Assembly: GCF_014645235.1 (NCBI RefSeq)
Contig: NZ_BMLM01000002.1
Coordinates: 666,696 to 730,695 of the forward strand
Direction: 5' to 3'
Source of the DNA: Agrococcus terreus
GTDB lineage: Bacteria; Actinomycetota; Actinomycetes; Actinomycetales; Microbacteriaceae
DNA: 64,000 nt
Shown here: in pieces, positions 3,345-49,644 of the stretch
Layout of the letters: each line of letters begins with the position of its first letter
Position numbering within the stretch: the stretch's first letter is position 1
Translations under genes and position numbers: made by a program
Notes under the pieces: generated by a model
Seen by the model: the letters and a program-made list of their open reading frames with translations, nothing else
Told to the model about the DNA's origin: nothing
Database searches by the model: none

Positions 3345-3417
3345 CGGATCTCAACCGGCTCTGCGGTCGCTCGAGGGGATTATCGCTTCGGCCGACCACT
3401 GAGCCGGTTGAGATCCG
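3345..3417. repeat. Long palindromic element, TCTCAACCGG family, copy 2 (left flank of HNH gene)
   Basis: Perfect 17-bp arms CGGATCTCAACCGGCTC (3345-3361) and GAGCCGGTTGAGATCCG (3401-3417) enclose a 39-nt centre containing GGGGATTATCGC. The sequence is nearly identical to the copy at 4005-4077, with three differences in 73 positions, and in the same orientation. Together the two copies bracket the HNH gene. Confidence 0.9.
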
Positions 3418-3432
3418 CGCAGATGCGGCAGG

Positions 3433-4004: not shown

Positions 4005-4077
4005 CGGATCTCAACCGGTCCTGTGGTCGCTCGAGGGGATTATCGCTTCGGCCGACCACTGAGCCGGTTGAGATCCG
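4005..4077. repeat. Long palindromic element, TCTCAACCGG family, copy 3 (right flank of HNH gene)
   Basis: Same 73-bp element as at 3345-3417, starting 660 bp downstream. Here two changes (GGTCC for GGCTC) break the left arm, while the right arm is unchanged. It lies between the divergent HNH and MerR genes, so it is not simply a terminator. Confidence 0.9.
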
Positions 4078-4113
4078 CGGGGACGCGGGCAGGGGGCGCG
4101 CAGGCGGCGCGGC

Positions 4114-6399: not shown

Positions 6400-6474
6400 C
6401 CTGGTCTCGACCGGGCCATTGGTCGGGCATCGACCTCACGTCGATGCCCGACCAACGAGCCGGTTGAGACCAGG
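6400..6474. repeat. Long palindromic element, TCTCAACCGG family, copy 4
   Basis: Outer arms CCTGGTCTCGACCGG (6400-6414) and CCGGTTGAGACCAGG (6460-6474) pair with one mismatch. Inner arms GGTCGGGCATCGA and TCGATGCCCGACC are perfect. It is a second palindrome in the same intergenic gap, 45 bp after the previous one. Confidence 0.85.
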
Positions 6475-27737: not shown

Positions 27738-27753
27738 CCCCGCCCGCGCCGGA

Positions 27754-27818
27754 TCTCAACCGGCTCAGTGGTTCGCCGAACGGATGACCCGTTCGGTCGA
27801 CCACTGAACCGGTTGAGA
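27754..27818. repeat. Long palindromic element, TCTCAACCGG family, copy 5
   Basis: TCTCAACCGGCTCAGTGG (27754-27771) pairs with CCACTGAACCGGTTGAGA (27801-27818) with one mismatch, around a 29-nt centre. It follows the response-regulator stop by 16 nt and may terminate that transcript. Confidence 0.85.
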
Positions 27819-29345: not shown

Positions 29346-29408
29346 TTCAACCGGCTCAGTGGTCCGCCGAGGGGATAGTGCCCTCGGTCGACCACAGAGC
29401 CGGTTGAG
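29346..29408. repeat. Long palindromic element, TCTCAACCGG family, copy 6
   Basis: TTCAACCGGCTC pairs with GAGCCGGTTGA around a centre with GGGGATAGTGCCC. It separates convergent genes (reductase and NTF2-like) by sitting in their 95-bp gap. Confidence 0.8.
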
Positions 29409-29425
29409 ATCGAAGCGAGCGCGCG

Positions 29426-47459: not shown

Positions 47460-47471
47460 GGCGCGGCGCTC

Positions 47472-47703
47472 GACCGCCGCCATCCGCATCCGAGCGGCGC
47501 CGCCCGCATCCGACTCGCGCCTCTGCTTCCCCGAGTGGCGCCTCCTGCTTCCGAGCGGCGACGTCCGCATCCGAGTGGCGACATCCGGTCGGCAGTGGCG
47601 TCGAATGACCGCCGTCCGCCGCCACTCAGGTGCGAACGGCGCCCATCCGCAGCGGAACGGCGCCGCTCAAGTGCCAATGGCGCCAGTCAAGAGCAAGCCG
47701 GCG
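47472..47703 (+). repeat. Non-coding array with 20-21 bp period, cores GAGTGGCG-like (plus orientation)
   Basis: Core 8-mers begin at 47472, 47492, 47512, 47533, 47553, 47573, 47593, 47614, 47634, 47655, 47675 and about 47696. The clearest are GAGCGGCG, GAGTGGCG, GAGCGGCG, GAGTGGCG, CAGTGGCG, GAACGGCG and GAACGGCG, with about 12 variable nt between, often CGCATCC or CTTCC. The period is not a multiple of three, so this is not coding. It begins 12 nt after the GAP stop. Confidence 0.75.
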
Positions 47704-47785
47704 CCGCTCGGCGACTCCGCGCACCGGGCAGTACGTCCGATGGGTCTCTTCGTGCGATCAGTGGTCAGGATCTGCTGCAAGGAGC

Positions 47786-47875
47786 GACCACTCCCGACCG
47801 ATCGCGACCACTGACCGCAGGACGTGACCACTCACGAGCACGACGCGACCACTCACGAGCGGGCAGTGACCGCTC
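47786..47875 (-). repeat. Non-coding array with 20-21 bp period, cores GAGTGGTC (minus orientation)
   Basis: Plus-strand cores GACCACTC, GACCACTG, GACCACTC, GACCACTC and GACCGCTC begin at 47786, 47806, 47826, 47847 and 47868, so steps are 20, 20, 21 and 21. Read on the minus strand the units are GAGTGGTC(G/A)CGTC-like and match the first array's GAGTGGCGACGTCC. The two arrays therefore face each other in opposite orientation in the 550-bp gap between convergent genes; the remaining sequence to 48009 shows no gene or other clear feature. Confidence 0.8.
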
Positions 47876-48009
47876 CCGCGGCGGCGAGCGACGCGCGAGC
47901 GACCACCGACCCAGCGTGCTCTCCGCGCGCACGACGGAGCCCCGCCGCCGGGCGCGATGCCTGGCGACGGGGCTGTCGGATGCGCGGGGTCGCGCAGGAG
48001 GCGGAGGGC

Positions 48010-49644
48010 TCAGCCCTGCGCGCGACGCGGGCCGCGGCGCTGACCGCCGCCGCCCTGGCCACGGCCGGCGTCGCCGCCCTGCATGGAGCCGCCGCCGGTC
48101 GACGACCACGCCACCGACGAGCCGCCGCGCGGCTGCTGGCCGCCCTGGCCGCGCCCGCCCTGCGAGCCCTGGCCGCCACGGCGGCCGCCCTGCGCGCCGC
48201 CCTGACCGCGGCTGCCGCGGCCGCCACCGGCACCGGAACCGGCACCCGCACCGGCCTTCACCTCGGGGCGACCCGAGCGGTCGCGGCGGGGACGGTCGTC
48301 GCGCTCGCGCGACTGGCCGCCGTGCGCGGCCGACGCCGCGGCGCCGCCGCGGGCGTCGCGCGCCGCGCGCTTGCGCTGCGCGTTGGCGCCGGTCGAGCGG
48401 CCGCCGCCGCCCTGCTGCTGGATCTCGTTGCCCGAGCCGGGGCCGCCGGGCACCGGGGCCACGTGCGGCGCGTACGGGCCGACGAGCGCGTCGACCGCAT
48501 CCGACGAGGCCGTGACCTGCTGCGGCTGCACCGTGATGGCGGCCTTCTTCAGCAGGAGCATCGTGTCCTTGCGCTGCGCGGGCAGCATGACCGTGGCGAC
48601 GTCGCCCTCCGAGCCGGCGCGCGCGGTGCGGCCGGAGCGGTGCAGGTACGCCTTGTGCTCCATGGGCGGGTCGACGTGCACGACGAGCTCGACGTGGTCG
48701 ACGTGCACGCCACGGGCGGCGACGTCGGTGGCGACGAGCACCTTCACCGAGCCATCGCTGAACGCGGCGAGGTTCCGGTCGCGGGCGTTCTGCGACAGGT
48801 TGCCGTGCAGGTCGACGGCGGGGATGCCGGAGGCCGTGAGGTGCTTCGCGAGCTTCTTCGCCTGGTGCTTCGTTCGGGTGAAGAGGATGCGGCGGCCCAT
48901 GCCCGACGCGAGGCGGCGCACGAGCAGGTTCTTGTCGTCGGGCGAGACCTCGAACAGGTGGTGCGTCATGGCGGCGACGGGCGAGTGCGCCTCGTCGACC
49001 GAGTGCAGCACCTGGTCGTGCAGGAACTTGGCGACGAGCTTGTCCACGCCGTTGTCGAGCGTGGCCGAGAACAGCATCCGCTGCCCGCTCTGCGGGGTCT
49101 TCGAGAGGATGCGCGTCACGACCGGCAGGAAGCCGAGGTCGGCCATGTGGTCGGCCTCGTCGATGACGGTGATCTCGATGGCCTCGAGCGAGGCGATGCC
49201 CTGCTGCATGAGGTCCTCGAGGCGGCCGGGGCAGGCGACGACGATGTCGACGCCGCCGCGGAGGGCCGCCTCCTGCGGGCGCTGCGAGACGCCGCCGAAG
49301 ATGGTGGTGACGGTGAGGCCGGCGGCCTTGGCGAGCGGCGTGACGGTCGCGGCGATCTGCGTCGCGAGCTCGCGCGTGGGGGCGAGGACGAGGCCGAGCG
49401 GCAGGCCCTTGCGGCGGCGGCCGCCGGCGAGCTCGCCGGCGAGGCGCGCGACCAGCGGGATCGCGAAGGCGAGGGTCTTGCCCGAGCCGGTCTTGCCGCG
49501 GCCGAGCACATCGCGGCCGGCGAGCGTGTCGGGGAGGGTGTCGACCTGGATCGGGAACGGGCTCGTGCGGTCCATGCCGGCGAGTGCTGTGACGAGCTTC
49601 GGCGGGACGCCGAGCTCGGCGAACGTGGGAACGGTGGTCTGCAT
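48010..49644 (-). CDS. DEAD-box ATP-dependent RNA helicase with Gly/Arg-rich tail
   Basis: The 544-residue protein has Q-motif TSPFPIQVDTLPDTLAGRDVLG, Walker A GKTGSGKTLAFAIPL, APTRELATQI, FGGV, CPGRLEDLM, DEADHMADLGF, SATLD, FTRTKHQAKKLA, VATDVAARGVHVDHV and HRSGRTARAG. The last 130 residues are Gly/Arg/Gln-rich (RGG-like), a likely RNA-binding tail. It unwinds or remodels RNA in the cytoplasm, as RhlE-type enzymes do. Start 49644 has AGAGAAG upstream. The 5' region carries a perfect long hairpin, so RNA-level control is possible. Confidence 0.92.
   Translation of the reverse strand: MQTTVPTFAELGVPPKLVTALAGMDRTSPFPIQVDTLPDTLAGRDVLGRGKTGSGKTLAFAIPLVARLAGELAGGRRRKGLPLGLVLAPTRELATQIAATVTPLAKAAGLTVTTIFGGVSQRPQEAALRGGVDIVVACPGRLEDLMQQGIASLEAIEITVIDEADHMADLGFLPVVTRILSKTPQSGQRMLFSATLDNGVDKLVAKFLHDQVLHSVDEAHSPVAAMTHHLFEVSPDDKNLLVRRLASGMGRRILFTRTKHQAKKLAKHLTASGIPAVDLHGNLSQNARDRNLAAFSDGSVKVLVATDVAARGVHVDHVELVVHVDPPMEHKAYLHRSGRTARAGSEGDVATVMLPAQRKDTMLLLKKAAITVQPQQVTASSDAVDALVGPYAPHVAPVPGGPGSGNEIQQQGGGGRSTGANAQRKRAARDARGGAAASAAHGGQSRERDDRPRRDRSGRPEVKAGAGAGSGAGGGRGSRGQGGAQGGRRGGQGSQGGRGQGGQQPRGGSSVAWSSTGGGSMQGGDAGRGQGGGGQRRGPRRAQG

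Follow-up and report, generated by a model that had tools for sequence, protein, structure and literature searches.

A 64,000-nucleotide stretch of Agrococcus terreus DNA (contig NZ_BMLM01000002.1, positions 666,696 to 730,695; here called the window) contains an array of short repeats in the gap between two genes, at window positions 47460-48009. As listed in Table 1, the gap holds two successive composite palindromes, in each of which a run of 20-21-bp units in forward orientation precedes a run of inverted ones. The array begins directly past the stop codon of the left-hand gene, a member of the SfLAP family. In palindrome 1 the forward cores start at 47492, 47512, 47533, 47553, 47573 and 47593, and the inverted cores lie at 47618, 47638, 47659, 47679 and 47700; a degenerate first core near 47472 is under the unit-detection threshold. 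In palindrome 2 the forward cores start at 47739 and 47759 and the inverted cores at 47784, 47804, 47824, 47845 and 47866. The initial annotation had described 12 plus-strand units and then a purely minus block, that is, one plus and one minus array. This arrangement has to be revised: the first block has six forward and then five inverted units, and the second opens with the two degenerate forward ones. Since GGCGCC is its own reverse complement, the inverted units look weakly forward too.

Table 1. Features of the gap 47460-48009 and of the genes on either side (window positions)
Feature	Position	Strand	Basis
Left neighbour gene, SfLAP/Sap family (PF11139), 251 amino acids	46704..47459	+	gene call, Pfam
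Palindrome 1, forward arm: six 20-21-bp CG-type units, GAGTGGCGNC core; seven including the degenerate first	47472..47602	+	unit mapping
Palindrome 1, inverted arm: five units, cores GGCGCCRCTC-like	47618..47709	-	unit mapping
Palindrome 2, forward arm: two degenerate TC-type units	47739..47768	+	unit mapping
Palindrome 2, inverted arm: five TC-type units, GYGACCACTC cores	47784..47875	-	unit mapping
GC hairpin, terminator-like, adjoining the right-hand gene	47938..47974	-	sequence; alignment with G019
Right neighbour gene, DEAD-box helicase, 544 amino acids, convergent with the left gene	48010..49644	-	gene call, Pfam

The 20-21-bp period proposed earlier holds. The autocorrelation of the gap has its peaks at lags 61, 20, 41 and 21. 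The number of 5-mers that recur at lag 20 or 21 is 47, while in 1000 dinucleotide shuffles it averages 3.2 and never exceeds 15. When 550-bp segments of the 64 kb are ranked by this lag-20/21 count, the highest-scoring ones all overlap the gap. The conserved GAGTGG core, the non-coding nature of the array and the spacing of about two helical turns per unit were likewise confirmed. The forward arm of palindrome 1 aligned to its inverted arm scores 76, and 500 rounds of mononucleotide shuffling of one arm never gave more than 58. Palindrome 2 scores 37 against a shuffled maximum of 35, a narrow margin that makes this palindrome marginal on its own. The arrays of the window fold as RNA more strongly than mononucleotide shuffles. 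A search of Rfam with the array gave two sub-threshold miRNA matches and nothing else. A coding origin was ruled out, as the array lies outside the called genes; the calls come from a codon-usage caller whose known misses include the nuclease gene of genome G030 and one GmrSD gene.

Is this array a lone element? Its own genome has 21 places that match the gap region (the gap counted among them), and of the 24 genomes of the genus 20 have one match or more. A strict two-unit pattern retrieved 49 stretches from a public genome collection, of which 48 are from Agrococcus and one, with only two units, is from Frankia (L085). A three-unit pattern matched 14 of 299 genomes of the family Microbacteriaceae: five of the six Agrococcus genomes have 8-49 matches (G006 has none) and nine other genomes have at most four. 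The same pattern read backwards, used as the control, gave 11 matches in Agrococcus G010 and at most four elsewhere. The array is one of many in its genome and in the genus. Arrays of 19-20 bp with GAGTTGG or CCACTC cores were seen in other genera (locus L058 of G065 and locus L072 of G072).

The arrays of the family have a preferred place and a preferred polarity. Among 17 fetched arrays of genome G000, one of which is the right-hand array of the nuclease gene described below, 7 lie between convergent genes, 10 between tandem genes and none between divergent genes, whereas the baseline of 132 other gene pairs is 20 convergent, 81 tandem and 31 divergent. A further pattern match, at G000:C2:762025 (L047), falls within a called gene and was discarded as a chance hit. 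In all fetched stretches, 73 arrays were counted (one site twice, as L049 and L097), with 40 convergent, 21 tandem, 2 divergent and 10 without an orientation call. Arrays with a callable orientation therefore sit nearly all at gene 3′ ends. Both unit orientations occur in 35 of the 73 arrays; 26 of these 35 have forward units first and inverted units last, and nine are mixed. A strictly inverted-then-forward array was found in none of the 73.

In ten fetched stretches the same gene always lies beside the arrays. In eight of them arrays were detected on both of its sides, separated by about 1 kb; for L099 the array of the second side shows up only as a pattern match, and L081 has an array on one side only. 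The adjoining proteins are about 296 amino acids long, with 75-78% identity to the first of six. DUF559 is above the cut-off in three of four of them, and matches to MTES_1575 are sub-threshold. Some homologue of this nuclease occurs in all 24 genomes of the genus, and exactly one close copy (E≤1e-120) in 15 of the 24; that of G000 lies at G000:C1:1552881-1553750, outside the window. According to Tandem Repeats Finder (TRF), 20-bp arrays, each with a unit of its own, flank both sides of 12 of the 15 close copies. The exceptions are the G010 copy, which lies at a contig end, the G019 copy, with arrays on one side, and the G000 copy, whose flanks are too degenerate for TRF but have arrays visible in the sequence. 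All 15 stand at one fixed locus, with an ANTAR response regulator gene and a 4HBT thioesterase gene as neighbours (in G010, one of the two is off the contig). The ratio of nonsynonymous to synonymous substitution rates (dN/dS) is 0.13-0.45 in nine pairs, and the close copy is under purifying selection; the G004 copy is interrupted, in two pieces. A phage or plasmid origin of the nuclease was rejected, with homologues in 1 of 50,697 phage and 5 of 72,556 plasmid records (one query, E≤1e-5).

An AlphaFold2 model of the nuclease was built from an 18-sequence alignment (mean predicted local distance difference test score, 86.9). Its C-terminal part (residues 184-289) matches the catalytic domain of the homing endonuclease I-Bth0305I as well as Vsr. 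For residues 1-179 the match is the AbiEi antitoxin; the root-mean-square deviation is large here, which is read as two domains set at a different relative angle in the model. With Foldseek by itself nothing reached E≤0.001, and the best match was AbiEi at 3.8e-3. Sequence profiles of the nuclease match 3hrl and 3r3p, and there are weak profile matches to defence nucleases and to AbiEi. Residues D220, E231, H237 and D247, invariant in 18 of 18 sequences, are candidate catalytic residues. As modelled, the protein is a fusion of an AbiEi-like part with a Vsr/EDxHD-type nuclease domain (DUF559).

At its own site the window array appears to have been gained or lost. In G019 both genes of the window junction are kept at 82-83% identity, with 14 nucleotides between the two alignments and no array, and the terminator-like hairpin by the helicase gene is largely conserved. 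In the helicase surroundings of 22 further relatives, no array holding both forward and inverted units was found; four of the 22 have one or two core pairs near the helicase gene, and most of the 22 lack the left-hand gene there. Loss of the period in a close relative, which the initial annotation would have taken against the element, was thus observed. Yet other array sites are common to several species (among the matches listed), so the absence in G019 is read as gain or loss at a single site and not as an artefact. At two shared sites (L041/L118 and L043/L128), G000 has TC or CC units and the relatives have CG units, each resembling its own nuclease flank. The unit type equals that of the nuclease flank of the same genome in 42 of 53 typed dispersed arrays, a count that includes contig-end arrays and is confined to arrays with a typed unit. 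One A. lahaulensis array is off its nuclease-flank type. When 42 dispersed arrays were aligned whole to the flanks, the own flank had a mean rank of 4.8 of 15, where 8 is expected. Unit type thus tracks the resident nuclease in many cases but not in all. This pattern may reflect the loss or replacement of nucleases, or nothing more than common descent.

DUF559 homologues occur in many Microbacteriaceae and in some other actinobacteria. At E≤1e-40 they were found in 125 of 199 genomes of the family, four of these being Agrococcus genomes, and many genomes have more than one. Their flanks often contain a palindrome of about 50-65 bp that is the same on both sides of one gene and differs between genes. 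Using 300-bp flanks and a 99% cross-pair null that mixes genera, a shared flank element beyond the null was detected in 39 of 52 other-genus homologues. A stricter test for both orientations was positive in 29 of the 52, compared with 4 of 353 control genes (mostly Agrococcus, plus 20 G030 stretches), and in only 7 of 25 nearer Agrococcus copies, a low count that is expected where the arrays on the two sides of a copy are opposite. The 52 homologues are 26 best-ranked search loci and 26 picked by hand from the search list; L182 (a contig end), L159 (the second piece of the G004 gene) and L160-L162 (repeats of genus loci) were left out, and L149, the other G004 piece, was scored as a failure although its flank starts within the gene. 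At the scale of the phylum, homologues at E≤1e-30 occur in at least 15 of 296 genomes, four of them from the Microbacteriaceae; this is a lower bound, as scoring was confined to the eight top candidates of each genome. Flanks outside the Microbacteriaceae are mixed, and several shared segments are not clearly palindromic.

Two of the private palindromes were followed further. That of G030 occurs at 45 places (88 matches) in its own genome and at 7 in the congener G174; none was found in the congener G112 or in seven genomes of other genera. The 20 stretches fetched contain 27 copies: 19 lie between convergent genes (two of them beside the uncalled nuclease), 6 between tandem genes and none between divergent genes, with 2 lacking an orientation call. 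Counting from 0, arm positions 2, 4, 6-8, 12 and 13 do not vary on either side in the 26 alignable copies of the 27, and the centres vary between copies. The palindrome of G099 has two copies at its own gene and one beside the homologue of the congener G212, with none in the other 8 genomes searched.

Two further features of these loci were noted. The distant paralogue at L216 (G006:C1:173178-175653) is flanked by an array-like tandem unit of about 41 bp (CGGTACCGGACGGCCG...). The DnaA-box-like motif TTATCCACA/TTGTCCACA lies within 250 bp upstream of the nuclease in 9 of 82 stranded loci (of 96 in total) and downstream in 0 of 82; six of the nine sites lie 84-89 bp before the match start (examples are L173, L183, L187, L192, L196 and L169).

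The association between nuclease and repeats is, in itself, hardly in doubt. With a probability of roughly 0.6, the array in the window is one of the dispersed, non-autonomous members of a repeat family that is partnered by, and would be spread with the help of, the chromosomal DUF559 nuclease. The AbiEi-like N-terminal part may bind the repeat arms as a dimer, and the Vsr/EDxHD-like domain may nick or cut the DNA at, or close to, either the variable centre or an unoccupied site. Repair that copies in existing repeats would then both spread and homogenise them, and they would persist where they do the least harm, at gene 3′ ends. In Agrococcus the arms would have expanded into tandem 20-bp arrays, unlike the hairpins of other genera. 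I-Bth0305I is reported to have a dimeric target near 60 bp (PMC3943268), and for AbiEi and Rv2827c binding to inverted repeats within the promoters of their own genes has been described (PMC7319586); by analogy, the long dimeric target and the inverted-repeat binding make such a mechanism plausible. The array is no isolated element: it belongs to a dispersed family with ties to a nuclease gene. The nuclease-repeat association was not found in the literature searched, a coverage that excludes most subscription papers, and papers mentioning DUF559 do not deal with repeats, judging by their titles and the beginnings of their abstracts.

Several observations weigh against this reading. Neither a target-site duplication nor movement was observed. 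In HG114 none of five dispersed arrays matches, all being of CG type while the nuclease flank of that genome is TC; of the 11 typed arrays in G000, 6 match and 5 are of a type other than TC. In the whole-array alignments, only 9 of the 42 dispersed arrays have the nuclease flank of their own genome in first place. No shared flank element was detected in 13 of the 52 other-genus homologues, in 5 of 18 distant paralogues and in 2 of 25 nearer copies. Because the G099 palindrome is confined to genes of such homologues, dispersal is not general.

A protein-binding array, as suggested at the outset, is a live possibility. The palindromes might be operators through which the AbiEi-like part autoregulates the nuclease, with the dispersed copies arising by slippage, recombination and the like. 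The AbiEi-like fold of the model agrees with this, as do the inverted repeats in the promoters of AbiEi and Rv2827c genes and the confinement to such genes of one of the two tested palindromes (G099). The element, however, stands on both sides of the gene, the 3′ side included, and operators have no need of dispersal to 45 places in G030; this explanation seems unlikely. A role of the arrays as bidirectional terminators or stabilisers of mRNA 3′ ends, forming long RNA hairpins between convergent genes, would fit both the 3′-end placement (in G000 against its baseline, and in the 73 arrays) and the RNA folding. It is nevertheless distinctly improbable, since the helicase gene has its own hairpin in array-less G019 too, the link with the nuclease is left unexplained, and the arm mismatches in G030, counted irrespective of transcription, are G-U compatible in 16 cases and of A-C type in 12, with no clear preference.

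That the arrays are decoy or safety sites with a defence-type function, titrating a nuclease that could be toxic or labelling the genome as self, is suggested by the candidate catalytic residues of the nuclease domain and by the weak matches to defence nucleases and AbiEi. Both immediate neighbours of the nuclease gene are non-defence genes, and homologues are scarce in the phage and plasmid records cited above; I consider such a role very improbable. The degeneracy of the window units could also indicate a decaying tandem repeat or a site for some unrelated nucleoid protein, in either case independent of the nuclease. This is already disfavoured, and has the slimmest chance, in view of the genus-wide family, the polarity of the arms, the bracketing of the nuclease gene and the purifying selection on it.

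The best reading is a system resembling REPIN-RAYT, that is, repetitive extragenic palindrome (REP) doublets forming hairpins with their REP-associated tyrosine transposases, built on an unrelated nuclease. It is an even bet that the AbiEi-Vsr fusion nucleases (DUF559) define an unrecognised, RAYT-independent class of enzyme-driven repeats, often private palindromes and in some cases genome-wide, whose arms turned into tandem arrays in Agrococcus.

Elsewhere in the window, an HNH endonuclease gene (PF01844; 3433-3942, minus strand) has a palindrome of about 75 bp on each side (3345-3420 and 4005-4079). The window contains three more copies of it (696-760, 27750-27818, 29347-29411) as well as one fragment (6448-6469). 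Gene and palindromes form a second nuclease-palindrome pair, with a nuclease of another family. A 679-amino-acid GmrSD-type protein (PF03235, PF07510; 13734-15773, minus strand) was missed by the codon-usage caller and so probably has an atypical codon usage; it may serve in type IV restriction or in defence.

The standard example of dispersed bacterial palindromes that have a partner enzyme is REPIN-RAYT. If the proposal is true, a second, unrelated enzyme family, with private palindromes in actinobacteria, would make the convergent evolution of enzyme-tied extragenic repeats testable, DUF559 proteins would gain candidate functions, and studies of long-site DNA recognition would gain a natural series of nuclease-site pairs.

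Compared with REPIN-RAYT systems (REPtrons) as described in PMC8049555 and PMC3733652, the likenesses are a single-copy, vertically inherited, repeat-flanked enzyme gene (here the 15 close Agrococcus copies of a different enzyme) and dispersed inverted arm pairs with a variable spacer (the 27 G030 copies, in array form in Agrococcus). The differences are that the enzyme is predicted to be a Vsr/EDxHD-like nuclease with an AbiEi-like part and not a Y1/HUH transposase, and that the arms are tandem arrays in Agrococcus. The Y1 transposase of RAYTs (PF01797) was found in 0 of 20 genomes, including G000 and G030, while the control was positive in 5 of 14; a RAYT origin of the repeats was rejected on this ground. 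A constant GTAG/CGTC tag is absent from the G030 copies, where GTAG occurs in 1 of 27 and CGTC in 4 of 27 within 8 nucleotides of the ends on either strand. Thus, the system would work like REPIN-RAYT but is not a member of it. TIRtrons, tyrosine transposase genes with long terminal inverted repeats, share the inverted-repeat-flanked enzyme gene and possibly modest repeat families, according to PMC3733652, but their enzyme family is unrelated. The EDxHD homing endonuclease I-Bth0305I shares the catalytic fold with the predicted nuclease model, whereas the nuclease gene here stands free in the chromosome, has an ordinary gene on either side and is associated with dispersed repeats. As for the type IV toxin-antitoxin system AbiE, the N-terminal part of the model is AbiEi-like, and AbiEi binds inverted repeats according to PMC7319586. 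Here, however, that part is fused to a nuclease, and the Agrococcus locus has an ANTAR regulator and a 4HBT thioesterase as neighbours and no AbiEii nucleotidyltransferase toxin. The nuclease locus is not an AbiE toxin-antitoxin pair.
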